A stretch of DNA of 56,129 bases from Nitrospirota bacterium (GTDB taxonomy: Bacteria > Nitrospirota > Nitrospiria > Nitrospirales > Nitrospiraceae): assembly GCA_020027965.1 (NCBI GenBank), contig JAHRHE010000005.1, positions 1 through 56,129 of the forward strand, in the 5' to 3' direction. Below the pieces are notes generated by a model that was given only the letters and a program-made list of their open reading frames with translations, had not been told where the DNA came from and ran no database searches. The position numbers were made by a program, and so were the translations under genes. This document shows, one piece after another, positions 8,712-56,129 of this stretch (its first letter is position 1; every line of letters begins with the position of its first letter).

Positions 8712-8734
8712 AGGACCGAGACTAAGCAAGTACG

Positions 8735-8806
8735 ATTTTGAGATTTGTGATTTGGTGATTGAAAGACCATGTCAAATCGCCACATTACGAGATCACCACA
8801 TGCGTA
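8735..8806. repeat. AT-rich TTTGGTGATTG repeat
   Basis: A short AT-rich stretch between hpnD and hpnE containing GATTTGTGATTTGGTGATTG and a degenerate complement (TCAAATCGCCAC). The same words occur between genes at 26620-26733. Confidence 0.5.
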
Positions 8807-15344: not shown

Positions 15345-15758
15345 ATGAAAACCTACCGCGAAGAGCTCTGGTTCGAGACGAAGACTCGACGGGCCTACCT
15401 GAACATTACCCCGCAGATTGAAGCCGCGGTCCGGAAGAGCGGAGTCCGCGAGGGCTTCGTGCTGGTCAATGCCATGCACATCACGGCCAGCGTCTACATC
15501 AACGATGACGAGCAGGGCCTGCTCCAGGACTACGATGAGTTTCTGGAGGGCCTGGCACCTCAGAAGGGGACCTACCGGCACAACGAGACGGGCGAGGATA
15601 ACGGCGATGCCCACATTAAACGACAGCTCATGGGCCGCGAAGTCGTGGTGGCCATCACCGATGGCAAACTAGACTTCGGTCCCTGGGAGCAGATTTTCTA
15701 CGGAGAATTCGATGGCCGCCGCCGCAAGCGAGTGTTGGTCAAAGTGATCGGCGAATAG
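15345..15758 (+). CDS. YjbQ family protein (UPF0047)
   Basis: A 137-residue YjbQ/UPF0047 protein with the signatures [41 protein letters not shown] and [26 protein letters not shown]. Some members have thiamine-phosphate synthase activity; the physiological role is not settled. It is divergent from nrdJ and downstream of a 149-base gap in which no site was recognised. Confidence 0.92.
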
Positions 15759-15769
15759 CGCGAGAGCGC

Positions 15770-15848
15770 AATTTAAAATGACAAATGACAAATTAAAAAT
15801 TGAGGGTTCAGTTTACATTTTACATTTTGCACTTTGAATTTGTCCTTG
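15770..15848. repeat. AAATGACAAATG...TTTTACATTTTGC repeat, copy 1
   Basis: AT-rich element directly after yjbQ. A purine-rich left half (AAAATGACAAATGACAAATT) faces a complementary pyrimidine-rich right half (TTTACATTTTACATTTTGC), ending ACTTTGAATTTGTCCTTGG. Copies lie at 22963-23045 and 54796-54890. Confidence 0.65.
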
Positions 15849-16009
15849 GCGTTTTCGTGCCGGGGCTTGCCTCTGGCACGGAAGTTTGGCAACATGGCAG
15901 TTGGTGAATGGCCATTAATCGTCAATCGTTCAGCGTTCATCGAGACGAAGTTCCTGTTATCTCCGGATAACGGTTCACGAATATCGAGTCACGCCCGGAG
16001 GAGGGGTCC

Positions 16010-22468: not shown

Positions 22469-22960
22469 ATGGCTGATTTCACCCACTTCAACGAATCCGG
22501 ACGGGCGAGGATGGTTGATGTCTCGGCGAAGAGTGCCACCGACCGCGTGGCCACGGCTCAAGGGCGGGTCTTCATGATGCCGGAGACGCTGGAAAAGGTC
22601 CAGCGGGGTAAAATCGCCAAGGGCGATGTCCTCGCGGTCGCCCAGGTCGCCGGGATTATGGGCGCCAAGCGGACCCCCGATCTCATTCCCATGTGCCACC
22701 CCGTCCTCCTCACCAGCATCGATCTCACCTTCAAGGAAGAACCTCAGCCCGATCGGGAGGGCCGATGCTCAATCACAATTACTGCCACCGCCAAGACCAC
22801 CGGCCAGACCGGGGTGGAGATGGAAGCCATGACCGCGGTGTCGGTGGCCGCACTCACGATCTACGACATGTGCAAGGCGGTGGATAAGGGCATGAGCTTC
22901 AGTGACATCGCGCTGCTCTCGAAATCCGGCGGTAAATCCGGAACGTACTCACGTGGGTGA
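22469..22960 (+). CDS. moaC: Cyclic pyranopterin monophosphate synthase MoaC
   Basis: Second step of molybdenum cofactor synthesis, working with MoaA to make cyclic pyranopterin monophosphate. A 163-residue MoaC with the signatures LTHFNESGRARMVDVSAK-like start (here ADFTHFNESGRARMVDVS), GDVLAVAQVAGIMGAKRT, IPMCHP, TGQTGVEMEAMTAVSVAALTIYDMCKAVDK and the C-terminal LLSKSGGKSG. First gene of the moaC, moaDE, moaA run. An AT-rich repeat lies between it and the next gene. Confidence 0.97.
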   Translation: MADFTHFNESGRARMVDVSAKSATDRVATAQGRVFMMPETLEKVQRGKIAKGDVLAVAQVAGIMGAKRTPDLIPMCHPVLLTSIDLTFKEEPQPDREGRCSITITATAKTTGQTGVEMEAMTAVSVAALTIYDMCKAVDKGMSFSDIALLSKSGGKSGTYSRG

Positions 22961-22962
22961 AT

Positions 22963-23045
22963 GGCAAAATTCAAAATGCTAAATGCAAAATGAAGAGAAT
23001 GAATCCGAAGGTTTTTGCATTTTGCCTTTTACATGTTGCATTGGG
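22963..23045. repeat. AAATGCAAAATG...TTTTGCATTTTGC repeat, copy 2
   Basis: Between moaC and the moaDE fusion. A purine-rich left half (AAAATGCTAAATGCAAAATG) faces GTTTTTGCATTTTGCC and ends TTACATGTTGCATTGGG. Same family as 15770-15848 and 54796-54890. A frame open through it (from 22983) runs into the moaDE frame but is probably not translated. Confidence 0.65.
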
Positions 23046-23051
23046 ACGATT

Positions 23052-23771
23052 ATGGTGACCATCAAGCTGTTCGGGCTGCTAAAAACCCTGGCGAGCAACC
23101 AAACCGACCTCTCCGTCGCACTCAACGGGGGGCGTCGGGTCAAGGATCTGGTCGCCGTACTGGACGGCCAATATCCGCGAATCGGCGAGTTGATCCACAA
23201 GAGAAAGGTCCTCGTATCGGTCAATCAGGAGATTGCCCATGAGGAGACCGAGATCAAAGACGGCGATGAGGTTGCGCTGCTGCCGCCGTTCGCCGGAGGG
23301 GCGATGATGGTTCCGTCCCCAAGCCACGATGGTCAGGGGGGCGACGATTCCATGCTGGTGCGCGTTCAACAGGAGAATTTTTCAGTCGATGCCGAGATTG
23401 ACCGGGTCCGCCAGCGGTCCACCCGCATCGGCGGTATTGCGATCTTTCTGGGCACGGCTCGGGACCGGTCTCGCGGCCATGATGTGAGCCGCATCACCTT
23501 CGAGCATTACGAGGGCATGGCGCAGAGAAAACTGCGGGAGATCCGAGAGCGAGCCTTAAAGGATTTTAACGTGATCGAGGCCCTGATCCTCCACCGGTAT
23601 GGGGACATCCAGATCGGCGAGAACATCGTCTTGATCGTGGTCGGGGCGGAGCACCGGGCTGACGCGTTTCGGGCGTGCCAGTGGTGCATTGACGAGCTCA
23701 AGCAGATTACCCCGATCTGGAAACTGGAGCAGACCCCGGAAGGACAAGTCTGGGTCGAGGAGCACCCATGA
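23052..23771 (+). CDS. MoaD-MoaE fusion (molybdopterin synthase, MoaX-like)
   Basis: A 239-residue fusion of both molybdopterin synthase subunits. Residues 1-83 are MoaD (ubiquitin-like) ending in PFAGG, whose Gly82-Gly83 would be the thiocarboxylate site if freed. Residues 84-100 are a Gly/Ser/Asp linker, and 101-239 are MoaE with FEHYEGMA, HRYGDIQIGENIV and ITPIWKLEQ, which contains the likely catalytic lysine. Like mycobacterial MoaX it would need cleavage after GG. Alternatively, internal initiation at the ATG at 23352 (with a GGGGGGCGA upstream) could supply MoaE alone. The stop overlaps moaA (ATGA). Confidence 0.9.
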   Translation: MVTIKLFGLLKTLASNQTDLSVALNGGRRVKDLVAVLDGQYPRIGELIHKRKVLVSVNQEIAHEETEIKDGDEVALLPPFAGGAMMVPSPSHDGQGGDDSMLVRVQQENFSVDAEIDRVRQRSTRIGGIAIFLGTARDRSRGHDVSRITFEHYEGMAQRKLREIRERALKDFNVIEALILHRYGDIQIGENIVLIVVGAEHRADAFRACQWCIDELKQITPIWKLEQTPEGQVWVEEHP

Positions 23772-51386: not shown

Positions 51387-52517
51387 ATGGCATTGCATGA
51401 TGGACCGCGGACAGACTCGTCCGGCATGCCGACTATGACTTCGCTGGAACAGATCGAGGCTGACGGCCATGAGCGGGTGACCATCTGCTGCGATTCTCGT
51501 ACCGGCCTGCACGCCATCATCGCCATTCACAGCACCAGGCGCGGGCCCGCCCTCGGTGGAGTGCGGATGTGGCCTTACTCGTCCATGGAGGATGCCTTGC
51601 GGGACGCGTTGCGCCTGTCCAAGGCCATGACCTTCAAGGCCGCCGTCAGCCGGCTCCCATTCGGCGGCGGGAAGGCGGTGATCATGGGCGACCCGGCACG
51701 GCAGAAGCGGCCTGCGCTGCTGACCGCGTTCGGACGCGTGCTCGACAGCCTGGGTGGGCGGTATATCACAGCCCAAGATGTGGGAATGACCGTCGCGGAC
51801 ATGGAACGGATCCGTCGGGTGACGCCCTACGTCACCGGAACTGCGGTGGGACGGGGTGGGAGCGGGGACCCATCCGAGATGACCGCGATCGGCGTGGTGC
51901 ATGGGATGCGCGCGGTGGTCGAGGAGCTGGACGGCGCCTCGGGGGGACCAGCCCGCCTGCAGGGCGTTCGCGTCGCGATTCAGGGATTGGGGAAAGTCGG
52001 CTATCGTCTGGCCGCGCTCCTGCATCAGGAGGGCGCCGACCTGATCCTGACGGATCTTGATCACGAACTGGCAGACCGGGCTGGACGGGAACTCGGAGCG
52101 AAGGTCGTGGGGGAGGATGAGATCTTCGAAGCGACCTGTGATCTCCTGGCTCCCTGCGCGCTGGGCGGCATTCTCAACAGCAAGACTATTCCCTGCTTGC
52201 GCTGCCGGGCTGTGGCGGGTTCCGCGAATAATCAACTGGCTGAGCCGGAGGACGGTGAGCGCCTGCAGGGACGCGGGATCCTGTATGCCCCCGACTTCGT
52301 CATCAATGCCGGAGGGCTCATCAACATTGCCGTAGGGTTCGGACGGGGTGGCTACGATCGGGCCAAAGCCGAACGGCGTACCCAAACGATCTCTTCGAGG
52401 CTGAAGGAGGTCTTCAGGATCGCCAAAGCCCGAGGGTGCTCGACTGCGACGGCGGCCGAGCGACTTGGTGAAGCCCGGCTGCGGAGCAGTCCGCGCAGGC
52501 GGGCGGCGGAACGGTAA
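51387..52517 (+). CDS. Glu/Leu/Phe/Val dehydrogenase (leucine-dehydrogenase-like)
   Basis: NAD-dependent amino-acid dehydrogenase. The N-terminal catalytic domain has RGPALGGVRMWPY, MTFKAAVSRLPFGGGKAVI with the catalytic lysines K84 and K96, and YITAQDVGM. The Rossmann domain has VAIQGLGKVGYRLAALL and LTDLD. VAGSANNQLAE and YAPDFVINAGGLI close the fold. Similar to leucine dehydrogenase. 376 residues; ATGs at residues 14 and 17 are alternative starts. The C-terminus is Arg-rich. Confidence 0.9.
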   Translation: MALHDGPRTDSSGMPTMTSLEQIEADGHERVTICCDSRTGLHAIIAIHSTRRGPALGGVRMWPYSSMEDALRDALRLSKAMTFKAAVSRLPFGGGKAVIMGDPARQKRPALLTAFGRVLDSLGGRYITAQDVGMTVADMERIRRVTPYVTGTAVGRGGSGDPSEMTAIGVVHGMRAVVEELDGASGGPARLQGVRVAIQGLGKVGYRLAALLHQEGADLILTDLDHELADRAGRELGAKVVGEDEIFEATCDLLAPCALGGILNSKTIPCLRCRAVAGSANNQLAEPEDGERLQGRGILYAPDFVINAGGLINIAVGFGRGGYDRAKAERRTQTISSRLKEVFRIAKARGCSTATAAERLGEARLRSSPRRRAAER

Positions 52518-52576
52518 GGCTGTCCACCGGCGCAGTCAGTCCTGGATCCTTCAGGACATGAGAGGGGAGCGGAAGC

Positions 52577-53050
52577 ATGGAGAAAGAATTGAAGGCGGGC
52601 GATCAGGCGCCGGACTTTTCCTTGCCGAACGAAAGCGGGAAGCCGATCAGCCTCACAAACCTCCGCGGGAAGCAAGTGATCCTGTACTTCTACCCCAAGG
52701 ATGATACCCCAGGCTGTACCAAGGAAGCCTGTAGTTTCCGAGATTCCCTGAAGCGGGTCGAGAAAGCGGGCTCGGTGGTCTTGGGCGTGAGTCTGGACGA
52801 CGGGGAATCTCACCGGAAGTTTATCGTGAAACATCGGTTGCCGTTTCCCCTGTTGTGCGATGTGAATGCCACGGTGTCGAAAGCCTATGGGGTGTACAAG
52901 CAGAAGCACATGTACGGCAAGAAGTTCTGGGGCATCGAACGAAGCACATTCCTGATCGGCGAGGCCGGCATCATCAAGGCGGTGTTCCGCAAAGTGAAGG
53001 TGGACGGACATGTGGACGAAGTCTTAGCAGCCCTGAAGGGTGACGGGTGA
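52577..53050 (+). CDS. bcp: Thioredoxin-dependent thiol peroxidase (Bcp/PrxQ)
   Basis: Reduces peroxides with electrons from thioredoxin. A 157-residue peroxiredoxin of the PrxQ type with the peroxidatic C47 in TPGCTKEAC and the resolving C52 five residues later. YFYPKDDTPGCT and GIERSTFLI are the diagnostic blocks. The last residues (KGDG) and the stop codon lie inside the GTGACG inverted repeat that starts at 53040. GGAGCGG lies ahead of the ATG. Confidence 0.95.
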   Translation: MEKELKAGDQAPDFSLPNESGKPISLTNLRGKQVILYFYPKDDTPGCTKEACSFRDSLKRVEKAGSVVLGVSLDDGESHRKFIVKHRLPFPLLCDVNATVSKAYGVYKQKHMYGKKFWGIERSTFLIGEAGIIKAVFRKVKVDGHVDEVLAALKGDG

Positions 53051-53130
53051 CGCGTGACGAGCGAGGCGTGCCGAGGCTCAGGCGGTCCGGTGTGCTCTCC
53101 CCGTCACGCGTCACGGGTCACGCGTCACGG
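53040..53130. repeat. GTGACGCGTGACG inverted repeat overlapping the bcp stop
   Basis: GTGACGGGTGACGCGTGACG (53040-53059) faces a 30-base array of CGTCAC words (53101-53130). At least 13 consecutive bases pair perfectly, and most of 20. It contains the end of bcp and stops six bases before the next ATG. Confidence 0.7.
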
Positions 53131-53135
53131 TCTTT

Positions 53136-53375
53136 ATGGATGATCGTGAAAAAACCTGGCATGGACTGCGGGCGGCCTCGCTCTCGATCATGGCCGGTGT
53201 TGGCCATCTTTATCTTGGAGACAAGCGAGGGTATGCCGTTTTCGCGTTTGGGGCAATCCTGGTGGTCATTTCCAAGCTGGTGTGGCAGCCGGCCGAACTC
53301 CTGTACCTGAGCCTGGCGATCTTTTCCGCCGTGGACGCGTACTCGATCGCCAAGCGCGGGCATGGGCTCATGTGA
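53136..53375 (+). CDS. TM2-like small membrane protein
   Basis: A 79-residue protein with two or three hydrophobic segments (about 12-26, 32-48 and 54-68). The GVGHLYLGDKRG segment and a later SAVDAYSIAKRG match the GxGxxYxG and DAYxxA features of TM2-type proteins. The function of these is unknown. It starts right after the GTGACG repeat. Confidence 0.7.
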   Translation: MDDREKTWHGLRAASLSIMAGVGHLYLGDKRGYAVFAFGAILVVISKLVWQPAELLYLSLAIFSAVDAYSIAKRGHGLM

Positions 53376-53425
53376 GTCTGGCGAGAGGCAGGAGAAGGGT
53401 GGTTCGTTATAAAAAAAGGAGAACG

Positions 53426-54793
53426 GTGCCGAAACGAAAGTCAGGAAATCGAGGCCCGGTTCGCTCCAGGGTCCCATACATCAAAATAGTTCCGCCGGGT
53501 CCAAAGGCCCGCGCGTGGGTCAACCGTGATGAGCAAGTGCTCTCGCAGTCCGTGACTCGAATCTATCCGCTTGTGATCGAAAAGGCGCGCGGCGCAATGG
53601 TGGAGGACGTAGATGGGAACCGCTATCTGGACTTTACGGCCGGCATCGCCGTGGTCGCGACCGGCCATTCGCATCCAGAGGTGGTGAAAGCGATCTGCGA
53701 GCAGGCAGCGCGCTTCGTGCACATGTCCGGTACCGACTTTTATTATCCGGCCCAGGTCAAGCTAGCCGAGATTATGGACCGCATCACTCCGGGCAAAAGT
53801 CCCAAGCGCACGTTCTTCAGCAACTCCGGCACCGAGGCGGTAGAAGCAGCCTTCAAGCTCGCCCGCTACCAAACTCGCCGCCCACTCATGATTGCCTTCC
53901 AGGGAGCTTTTCACGGCCGCACGATGGGCGCCCTCTCCCTCACAGCGAGCAAAGCCGTCCAGCGCCGGCACTTCTCCCCGCTGGTTCCAGGAGTGACGCA
54001 CGTTCCCTATGCGTCCTGCTACCGTTGCCCGTACGGGTTGACCTATCCCTCCTGCAAAATGCATTGCGTGAATATCATCCGGGACTGGTACTTCAAGAGT
54101 CTTGTGCCCCCGGAGGATGTCGCCGCCATCGTGGTGGAACCCATTCAAGGAGAAGGGGGTGTCATCGTGCCCCCGCCTGAGTTCCTTCCGATGCTGGCTG
54201 ACATGGCCAAGGAGTTCGGCATCCTGCTGATTGCCGACGAGGTGCAGACGGGGATGGGCCGCACGGGAAAGATGTTTGCGGTCGAGCACTGGAACGTGCA
54301 ACCGGATATCATCGCCGTCGGAAAGGGAATTGCGTCCGGCCTGCCGATGGGTGCCACGGTAGCGTCGACGGATGTGATGAGCTGGCAGGCCGGATCGCAT
54401 GCCAACACATTCGGCGGAAATCCCGTTGCCTGCGAGTCGGCGCTGGTCACGATTGAGTTACTGCAGCGGAATTTGGTGGCCAATGCCGCGAAGCTGGGGG
54501 CGTATCTCCTGCAAGAATTGGCCAAGCTGAAGGACCGGCACCGGCTGATCGGGGATGTCCGCGGCAAGGGCCTGCTGATCGGAATCGAATGCGTGCGCGA
54601 TCGCGAGACAAAGGAGATGGCGATCCAGGAGCGGAACGATATTATCCAGCGGTGCTTTCGCAAGGGGCTGCTCCTCCTCGGCTGCGGCCAGAACGTGATC
54701 AGAATCGTGCCCCCGCTCCTGATCACGAGACGCGAGGCCGACACGGCCCTGGAGATACTGGATGCGGTGTTCACCGATGTCGAGGGCGGCTAG
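53426..54793 (+). CDS. Class III aminotransferase (acetylornithine/4-aminobutyrate type)
   Basis: PLP-dependent aminotransferase of 455 residues. Blocks are FSNSGTEAVEAAFKLARY, AFQGAFHGRTMGALSLTASK, EPIQGEGG, IADEVQTGMGRTG and AVGKGIASGLPMG with the PLP lysine, then HANTFGGNPVAC. The YASCYRCPYGLTYPSCKMHC cysteine cluster is a feature of the archaeal/GABA-type branch. The GTG at 53426 has AAGGAG just ahead, and the N-terminus PKRKSGNRG is basic. Earlier codons overlap the TM2-like gene. The exact substrate (GABA, acetylornithine or another) is open. Confidence 0.9.
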   Translation: MPKRKSGNRGPVRSRVPYIKIVPPGPKARAWVNRDEQVLSQSVTRIYPLVIEKARGAMVEDVDGNRYLDFTAGIAVVATGHSHPEVVKAICEQAARFVHMSGTDFYYPAQVKLAEIMDRITPGKSPKRTFFSNSGTEAVEAAFKLARYQTRRPLMIAFQGAFHGRTMGALSLTASKAVQRRHFSPLVPGVTHVPYASCYRCPYGLTYPSCKMHCVNIIRDWYFKSLVPPEDVAAIVVEPIQGEGGVIVPPPEFLPMLADMAKEFGILLIADEVQTGMGRTGKMFAVEHWNVQPDIIAVGKGIASGLPMGATVASTDVMSWQAGSHANTFGGNPVACESALVTIELLQRNLVANAAKLGAYLLQELAKLKDRHRLIGDVRGKGLLIGIECVRDRETKEMAIQERNDIIQRCFRKGLLLLGCGQNVIRIVPPLLITRREADTALEILDAVFTDVEGG

Positions 54794-54795
54794 GA

Positions 54796-54890
54796 AATGC
54801 AAAATGTAAAATGACAAATGAAGAAAGCAAAACGAAAAATGCGGACCTGAAATTTGCACTTTTTGCATTTTGCATTTTGAATTGTTCATT
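54796..54890. repeat. AAATGCAAAATG...TTTTGCATTTTG repeat, copy 3
   Basis: GAAATGCAAAATG on the left and a TTTGCACTTTTTGCATTTTG block on the right, ending GAATTGTTCATTGGG. Same family as 15770-15848 and 22963-23045. Here it contains the start codon and the leader of the gene at 54811. Confidence 0.7.
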
Positions 54891-55716
54891 GGGCGTGTCG
54901 GAGACAGTGCTGGCGGCTGCAAAGCTTTCCGGCACGCTCACCATCCGTGATGCCTTGGCCATGCCGGGTCGCCCGGTCAGGATCGAGGCCAGGCTTGTCC
55001 ACAGTGCTCTTTTCGCTCAGACCGGCTTGGGCGGTGAGCAGCTCGAATTCTTCGCGGGGGAGCGGCGAATCGGGCAGGCGATGACTGGAGGCGACGGCCG
55101 TGCGTTTCTCGAATGGACGCCGCGCATGCGCGGGAACCATGCCGTCACGGTCAAAGTCGCGCCCGGACAGCGAGTGGAGAGCGTACCAGCTAGCGCGATC
55201 GTGGCCTGTTGGGAACGCCGCCGCCCTATCCTTCTGGTGGAGATAGGGGCTCTCGCCGAGGAGACCAAATCCCCGGTCGTGCCGCTCCCGCGCTCGCCGG
55301 CCTCAGTCGGCCGCCAGGAAGACCCCGAGCCCGCTCGGGATGCCGTCGCGGTTCTGAAACAACTGAGCCAATTCTTCTACAATGTGATCTATCTCTCCCA
55401 CGGCGAGACTGGCCCGGGAAGCAGCATGGGCGACACTGGGGACGTGCGCGAGTGGCTGCGGCGGCACGAGTTTCCACCCGGGCTGTCGCTGACGGTGAAG
55501 GCTGGCAGGACCGCTCTCGAAGAGAAGCTTGACGAGCTGAAGGCTGAGGGGTGGGATAACGTTCAGGCTGGCGTCGGTCGGACCGTGGAGTTTGCCGAAG
55601 TCCTCCTCGCCCATCGGATGAAAGTGGTGATTCTGGAGGGGGCCAACCAGCTCGACAAGCTCCCCAAGAAAGCGCAGGCAGTGAAGGACTGGAAAGAGGT
55701 TCGAAAGAAACTGTGA
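54811..55716 (+). CDS. Hypothetical protein with repeat-derived signal peptide and Ig-like domain
   Basis: A 301-residue protein as read from the ATG at 54811. The first 27 codons lie inside repeat copy 3 and encode a signal-peptide-like stretch (FALFAFCILNCSLGVSETVLAAA). Residues about 38-130 look like an Ig-like or carboxypeptidase-regulatory beta domain (GTLTIRDALAMPGRPVRIEARLVH and GNHAVTVKVAPGQRV). The rest (150-301) has VAVLKQLSQFFYNVIYLSH, WLRRHEFPPGLSLTVKAG and a KVVILEGANQLDKLP end. It resembles HAD-like phosphatidate-phosphatase-type folds only loosely, and I do not assign a function. Without the repeat the protein would have no obvious export signal. Confidence 0.7.
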   Translation: MTNEESKTKNADLKFALFAFCILNCSLGVSETVLAAAKLSGTLTIRDALAMPGRPVRIEARLVHSALFAQTGLGGEQLEFFAGERRIGQAMTGGDGRAFLEWTPRMRGNHAVTVKVAPGQRVESVPASAIVACWERRRPILLVEIGALAEETKSPVVPLPRSPASVGRQEDPEPARDAVAVLKQLSQFFYNVIYLSHGETGPGSSMGDTGDVREWLRRHEFPPGLSLTVKAGRTALEEKLDELKAEGWDNVQAGVGRTVEFAEVLLAHRMKVVILEGANQLDKLPKKAQAVKDWKEVRKKL

Positions 55717-56129
55717 GCGAGTGCTGGCCTCAAGGGCGCGGACGAGTGCCTCCATTCTCCATCCATAGCTCACTCTAAGTGGGTGATTGGGTTGCCCCGC
55801 ATGGCGCGCGTCCGGCGAACCCAGTAACCGCTATACCAAAGACCCGGTGGCTTGGCTGACCCCTAGTGCGCGCGTCACGACCCGTTGCAACGAAGGGCAA
55901 CGGGTCCCCCGGCACTCCATCCTCCATTTATTTTCAGAGGACGGGCGGCTGGGCTGGCCTTCACTGCGCGCGTCATCACCCGTTGCAATTCTGAAGAGCA
56001 ACGGGTACCCGGCACACCTCCACCCCTGGCTTTCTCCGGCGGCGAGTGGCCGGGTGGCCTCAGACTGCGCGCGTCGAGCGAGCACTCTATCCTCCAGGGC
56101 CTCTACGAACAATCCTGAGTGCGCGCTCC
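55717..56129. other. Intergenic stretch with tandem ~100-bp units
   Basis: No gene is supported. The stretch consists mostly of the tandem units described at 55867. Confidence 0.5.
55867..56100. repeat. Three tandem ~100-bp units
   Basis: TGCGCGCGTC recurs at 55867, 55965 and 56066 (98 and 101 bases apart). The first two units contain an ACCCGTTGCAA...GCAACGGGT hairpin and a CCCGGCAC word; the third lacks the hairpin. A GGCTGGCCT/GGGTGGCCT word precedes units two and three. The hairpin matches that at 1941-1980. Confidence 0.65.

Follow-up and report, generated by a model that had tools for sequence, protein, structure and literature searches.

A heptamer palindromic repeat as a probable source of a signal peptide in a Nitrospirota bacterium

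Genes and heptamer repeats of the window

The window, the whole 56,129-nt stretch of DNA analyzed here, has a G+C content of 61% and constitutes contig C154 of a 3.6 Mb genome in 263 contigs. The gene names moaD, nuoF and rimM were assigned by reading translations and do not come from databases. Near the end of the window, a class-III aminotransferase ORF (53282..54793, + strand) ends with the stop codon TAG at 54791-54793; its true start is probably further in. It is followed by an ORF encoding 301 amino acids (54811..55716, + strand), which has family matches in relatives. A repeat, designated copy 3 (54794..54890, no strand assigned), begins directly 3' of the aminotransferase stop codon and extends into this second ORF. 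It is an imperfect palindrome of 7-nt units, with an A-rich arm of AAAATGC-like units at about 54794-54842 (GAAATGC, AAAATGT, AAAATGA, CAAATGA) and a T-rich arm of TTTTGCA-like units at about 54852-54890, ending in TGCATTT, TGCATTT and TGAATTG. The predicted hairpin of copy 3 has a free energy of -26.9 kcal/mol, with a z-score of -2.7 against shuffles.

A scan of the window for lag-7 identity of at least 50% over 90 nt detected four tracts, located at 15741-15880, 22951-23050, 53031-53130 and 54751-54910. At the control lags 4, 5, 10, 11 and 13 no tract was found in the window, with one at lag 8 and three at the harmonic lag 14. Three of the lag-7 tracts are the repeat copies listed in an earlier note on this DNA, and the repeat is real, as shown by the lag-7 tract, the hairpin and the genome-wide excess of pattern matches described below. 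Copy 1 (15768..15850, ends approximate, no strand assigned) is intergenic, and no frame of at least 110 codons passes through its T-arm on that strand; an early stop had been noted there. Copy 2 (22962..23046, ends approximate, no strand assigned) has a frame that is open into the ORF at 22983-23771 and reads ...EGFCILPFTCCIGTI into MVTIKLFG, as had also been stated; the likely true start of this ORF is ATG 23052 (MVTIKLFG, MoaD-like by reading). The remaining tract is a palindrome of another 7-nt unit, of GTGACGC/GTCACGC type (53031..53130, no strand assigned), and sits between an AhpC/TSA-family gene and an ORF at 53136. The sole match in an Rfam scan of 52000-56129 was a microRNA family far below the cut-off, over 53029-53132, and was taken as spurious.

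Two further repetitive stretches were observed in the window. At 8720-8765, the units ATTTTGA, GATTTGT, GATTTGG and TGATTGA resemble another 7-nt array, below the threshold of the lag-7 scan. At 55781-56075, after the 54811 gene, a GC-rich direct repeat of 32 nt ending in GCGCGCGTC occurs four times, with a start-to-start spacing of 64-101 nt.

Start codon and leader of the 54811 protein

The earlier note had proposed that the 54811 gene starts inside copy 3, and this was borne out. ATG 54811 lies inside the A-rich arm and opens a frame of 301 codons to the stop at 55714-55716, in which the T-rich arm reads as the hydrophobic stretch FALFAFCILNCSLG. The proposed signal peptide, MTNEESKTKNADLKFALFAFCILNCSLGVSETVLAAA (54811..54921, + strand), takes its h-region from the T-arm and would be cleaved after A37. 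The mature part (54922..55713, + strand) aligns with orthologues from KLSGTLTIRDAL on. The h-region FALFAFCILN has a mean Kyte-Doolittle hydropathy of 2.31, as expected of the hydrophobic core of a Sec signal peptide of the SPase I type. By reading, small residues occupy positions -3 and -1 of the putative cleavage site (VLAAA followed by KLSG), which is where conservation begins. The proposed n-region is weakly charged, with K7, K9 and K14 offset by E4, E5 and D12 to give a net charge of zero apart from the amino end.

The 54811 frame is open further upstream, and two possible starts there (ATG 54589 and GTG 54652) overlap the aminotransferase gene. The only ATG between these and the T-arm is 54811. 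It was chosen as the start for two reasons: no in-frame start precedes it after the aminotransferase stop, and it brings the hydrophobic stretch close to the N-terminus. A start downstream of the repeat, which the earlier note had named as evidence against its proposal, was looked for and not found: from the in-frame alternatives past the T-arm core (TTG 54889, GTG 54895 and GTG 54907) no hydrophobic stretch remains, and the protein would have no leader. The start codon is paired within the predicted hairpin stem, and the only ribosome-binding-like sequence is an AGGA at 54792-54795, about 15 nt before the ATG; initiation may therefore rely on coupling with the gene upstream.

The Ig-like domain attributed to the 54811 protein is weakly supported. 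Among 30 aligned members of the family, one matches Pfam Big_3_5 (E 0.004), while the window protein has no match at E 0.01. Six of the 30 match LNS2 (best E 1.7e-5), again with no match of the window protein at E 0.01; at a laxer limit, residues 169-243 of the window protein give an LNS2 match of 15.9 bits, which is less than the cut-off (27.7), and its C-terminal half is weakly LNS2-like. A PDB profile search with 30 orthologues gave weak matches only, the best being PITPNM1 (E 0.008).

Orthologues of the 54811 protein in related genomes

The 54811 protein was matched in 92 of the 99 genomes searched, its own included. After omission of six genomes with short or contig-edge best matches (G006, G021, G068, G074, G076 and G088), 86 orthologous loci were retained, one per genome and including that of the window. 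One of the relatives belongs to the genus of the window. The array is absent from all 85 other loci in the region from -300 (or the locus end, at least 120 nt) to +60 of the mature start. A hydrophobic leader, defined as a 10-residue stretch with mean hydropathy of at least 1.6 in the 40 residues that precede the mature part, is present in 85 of the 86 loci, the single exception by this rule being L113. An alignment of 30 members shows unrelated leaders, with conservation setting in at about residue 38. The 301-codon frame contains no stop and aligns over the full mature length. The comparison of orthologues thus revealed different leaders, and no repeat, elsewhere. Orthologues with the same leader but without the repeat, which the earlier note had named as the other observation that would count against it, were sought among the 85 other loci and not found.

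The distance between the aminotransferase stop and the mature start also bears on the history of this leader. It is 125 nt in the window and 73-140 nt (median 88 nt) in the ten other loci that have the aminotransferase just upstream. Had a 97-nt repeat simply been added to such a gap, a distance of about 185 nt would be expected, which suggests that the repeat replaced most of the old leader.

Other copies in the genome

A 19-nt T-arm pattern with up to three mismatches has 31 matches in the genome, against one for a reversed-pattern control. A looser pattern gave 38 matches against 8 for the control, among the matches listed. In the looser search the control exceeded the pattern in several genomes (e.g. 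G010, G033 and G004), in part, we think, because the reversed pattern fits a TTTTACC type of repeat.

At least 16 copies were examined in this genome by pattern searches and reading, leaving out a match on C244. These 16 copies comprise five leaders, four copies in frame inside genes, three that precede genes and four intergenic ones. With multiple copies at intergenic and intragenic sites among the 16 examined, the element resembles in this respect a palindromic repeat of the bacterial MITE kind. A stretch on C183 (L024) was initially listed as a copy and was rejected as not being one.

The five leader copies belong to the 54811 gene, three lipoproteins with a lipobox just past the T-arm, and one prepilin. 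The lipoprotein leaders are MRKAKGKLEVRGLFSFFILNFAFIFIAGC (on C194), MKNVEFKMKHCRTSGQAVLHFAFFIFNFSLLAAIAAC (C95) and MERARVWRRPQFFILNFALVIALVASAGC (C127), ending in IAGC, IAAC and SAGC, respectively. In each of the three, the Cys-ending lipobox lies past the h-region and is kept by orthologues. The prepilin leader on C52 reads MKVRSTDGNFSFYILPCLEEAG followed by FSLIEV and is recognized by Pfam N_methyl. The four intragenic copies lie in long open frames with the A-rich strand as the sense strand and comprise the A-arm only; by Pfam, two of these genes encode a leucyl-tRNA synthetase and an RNA uracil methyltransferase. The three copies preceding genes lie just before ones that probably start downstream. 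The proposal of the earlier note can thus be widened, as further copies in this genome and in its relatives appear to supply leaders.

Heptamer leaders in related genomes

All 30 loci examined in each lipoprotein family have a loosely defined lipobox-like motif where one is expected, both with and without a repeat. Leaders built, by reading, from the same heptamer occur in other genera in the C194 family (L178, L179, L189 and L196) and in the C95 family (L209, L216 and L218). Leaders of other heptamer types were likewise identified by reading, namely TTTTACC/TTTTGCC (L176, L177, L181, L206 and L207), TTTCACG (L190, L212, L219 and L224) and TTACGCC (L208 and L211). In the C127 family, a single old insertion seems to be common to the relatives L236 and L237 and this genome. 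Also by reading, the C95 gene junction carries heptamer palindromes of about four sequences across genomes, for example in L205, L206, L208 and L212.

Further families show leaders of the heptamer kind. They include LolA (L325 by Pfam, L316 by resemblance), an FGE-sulfatase protein (L285) and a PKD-domain family with TTTTGCA leaders (L322, L481 and L415). L415 is labelled Armatimonadetes and may be a misbinned relative. Within the PKD-domain family, G038 and G018, which belong to one genus, encode proteins that are about 90% identical from query residue 15 on; the leader is the palindrome in G038 and a different one with a TTCTGCC-like run in G018. L371 looks SurA-like by eye, has no Pfam SurA match and is not claimed here. 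L321 first seemed to be a leader and was rejected, as its continuation resembles an antisense frame.

Statistical association of heptamer repeats with leaders

The association of T-arms with lipoboxes was assessed in 96 loci (16 from this genome and 80 from relatives) containing 132 T-arms and 105 open frames, an open frame being one of at least 60 codons downstream, or at least 40 codons at a contig end. In 12 of the 105 open frames, a lipobox is situated no more than about 22 codons from the T-arm, compared to three in a control interval lying about 27-52 codons beyond. Of these 12, L276 (minus strand), L317 and L329 look spurious; the remaining nine look genuine and represent the two families C194 and C95. 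When genes were filtered more crudely, leaders of lipoprotein type were identified in 7 of the 25 ORFs that have a T-arm close to their start and in 4 of 113 controls (p 0.0006), the seven representing three families. For signal peptides of any kind, the difference (8/25 T-arm ORFs versus 20/113 controls) was not significant (p 0.094).

The most objective of the tests is that of periodicity, in which the 120 nt before the mature start were scored as periodic when lag-7 identity was at least 3.5 sd above codon-phase shuffles, and other heptamer types entered unselected. In the leader DNA of the 54811 gene, this identity is 7.2 sd above the shuffles. Across five families (C127-family L243 omitted), 37 of 207 leader stretches are periodic at lag 7, while the mature control gave 0 of 207 at every lag; lags 4, 5, 8, 10 and 11 combined gave seven leader stretches, five of them at lag 8. 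The counts per family are 1/86, 9/30, 16/30 (C95), 2/29 and 9/32. All five families were chosen for a known repeat in at least one genome and their loci are related, hence not independent, so that 37/207 is no genome-wide estimate. A comparison of gene starts across the window and the 96 loci revealed lag-7 periodicity in 10 of 43 rule-based signal-peptide genes and in 7 of 226 other genes (p 3e-5; one count per family gives p 0.005); both groups are affected by the selection of these loci for the presence of a repeat. Two of the seven periodic starts in the other group, L285 and L325, are leaders overlooked by the rule.

Origin of the leader and alternative explanations

It is quite probable that the 5' end of a gene for an exported protein gave way to a palindrome of 7-nt units, which is now read as the Sec leader. 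In the course of events that we infer, a short palindromic repeat would have taken the place of the original 5' end, and an ATG in its A-rich arm would have become the start codon, followed by a short lysine-containing n-region. The T-rich arm would be read as the hydrophobic core, and SETVLAAA, probably the old c-region, would have been retained before the mature protein. The 54811 protein would then be exported by Sec and cleaved by signal peptidase I. Conservation, leader anatomy and the orthologues point to export, and the exaptation of a repeat as a predicted export signal, as put forward in the earlier note, is supported. A leader function would be easily acquired because a heptamer array encodes one and the same heptapeptide in all three frames.

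The repeat could instead be kept for a role as nucleic acid, as an operon intergenic hairpin or in mRNA stability or attenuation, with the leader reading as a tolerated by-product. We regard this as rather unlikely. The z-score of the hairpin (-2.7) would fit such a role, as would the several copies that lie a few bases past an upstream stop codon, the differing heptamer palindromes that by reading recur at the C95 junction, and the apparently non-exported genes that also follow copies and start downstream of them. However, periodicity is concentrated in signal-peptide leaders (10/43 versus 7/226), and a nucleic-acid role leaves the loss of the old leader unexplained. It is improbable that the repeat destroyed the leader, leaving a protein that starts downstream and is no longer exported, or a decaying gene, since the 301-codon frame is intact and can be aligned along the entire mature part, the T-arm is read in an open frame as a hydrophobic stretch, and the parallel cases have a correctly placed lipobox; the start codon in the hairpin stem, the weak n-region and the in-frame TTG 54889, GTG 54895 and GTG 54907 past the arm would agree with it. 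Signal peptides are Lys-rich and then Phe/Leu-rich, which favors A-rich and then T-rich DNA, and ordinary AT-rich signal-peptide DNA might therefore resemble the repeat by chance, with no insertion at all. This explanation is extremely improbable given a lag-7 identity of 7.2 sd above codon-phase shuffles and 31 genome matches against 1 for the control, and it is contradicted by the multi-copy result, as copies are also intergenic and inside other genes.

Frame independence of heptamer arrays

The replacement of a leader by a heptamer palindrome has a simple possible basis. As 7 is not a multiple of 3, an array shifts frame by one base per unit and encodes an identical heptapeptide in the three frames, which was checked for 12 units. 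TTTTGCA encodes FAFCILH (mean hydropathy 2.14), and its complement encodes MQNAKCK. Under strict limits (one strand uncharged with mean hydropathy of at least 2.0, and the complement open, Met-containing and with a net charge of at least +2), ATTTTGC is the sole one of 2344 heptamer classes to pass; 22 pass when the Met requirement is dropped, and five pass under the loosest limits tried. Since these limits were set after the consensus had been seen, and real copies include the stop-codon variants TTTTGAA and TTTTTAA, this selection is an illustration and not a test. We tentatively suggest that heptamer palindromes may act as frame-independent leader cassettes, with start codons and lysines in one arm and a hydrophobic heptapeptide in the other, on either strand. 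The leader DNA of certain exported genes in this bacterial family could then be a hot spot at which differing palindromes replace one another and signal peptides are renewed repeatedly.

Relation to known repeats

Signal peptides tolerate great sequence change, and to our knowledge the emergence of new ones has rarely been observed directly. In the present case, a family conserved among relatives appears to have had its leader replaced by a repeat, with parallels in lipoproteins, LolA and others. This would show short repeats as a recurrent source of working protein segments, and the alike reading of a 7-nt unit in every frame offers a simple reason for it. The recurrence suggests that dispersed repeats can turn into functional parts of proteins time and again.

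A repeat serving as a signal peptide is already known in kind from Yersinia, where, according to the accessible parts of the reports, the palindromic repeat YPAL/RU-2 forms part of the predicted signal peptide of YPO1552, homologues of which in other genera have unrelated signal sequences (Delihas 2007; PMC2759123, PMC2229807). As described there, YPAL/RU-2 measures 168 bp, has a contiguous ORF and is represented by a few cases, which sets it apart from the 7-nt-unit array reported here, with its several gene families and sequence types and its lipoproteins conserved among relatives. The Rickettsia palindromic elements (RPE) also lie in frame within conserved genes (PMC2229807) and are likewise distinguished by their described length and structure. 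The accessible text of that source does not mention a signal-peptide role for RPE, whereas the leader copies described here are read along the T-arm; the four intragenic copies are read along the A-arm. Heptamer repeats have been described in Beggiatoaceae, cyanobacteria and Xanthomonas, namely TAACTGA (PMC4679880) and GGGAATC (PMC4692102). They share 7-nt units and a mostly intergenic location with the present element, but, in the portions available, they are mainly direct repeats with proposed regulatory or quadruplex roles, and a leader role is not mentioned. Translation of a TAACTGA array into a repeating peptide was already noted (PMC4679880, section 9), and the term 'signal peptide' does not occur in PMC4679880. 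Neither the exact letters of the repeat nor its heptapeptides were found in the open-licence literature, and a description of this element was not found in the titles and abstract openings of that literature. To the extent covered by these searches, four points are new: an element built of heptamers, the fact that it recurs at several genes for exported proteins, the presence of several sequence types at one site, and the argument that links reading frames to leaders.

Distribution in a wider genome collection

The palindrome pattern was detected in at least 120 stretches of a species-genome collection. Eighty loci were analyzed, from cyanobacteria, planctomycetes, Chloroflexota, Acidobacteria, Bacteroidetes, a Nitrospirae record and others. 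Among 69 open frames in these 80 loci, no lipobox excess was observed (three near the arm versus three in the control), and a single record of the relative G028 accounts for two of the three near-arm cases. The leader role is thus supported mainly among relatives of the window. Single leaders are plausible in the Thermoanaerobaculia record L347 (ending in LTSC) and in L415. In an Oscillochloris MAG (L417 and L419), the full palindrome appears, by reading, in frame within permease-like and P-type-ATPase-like genes.
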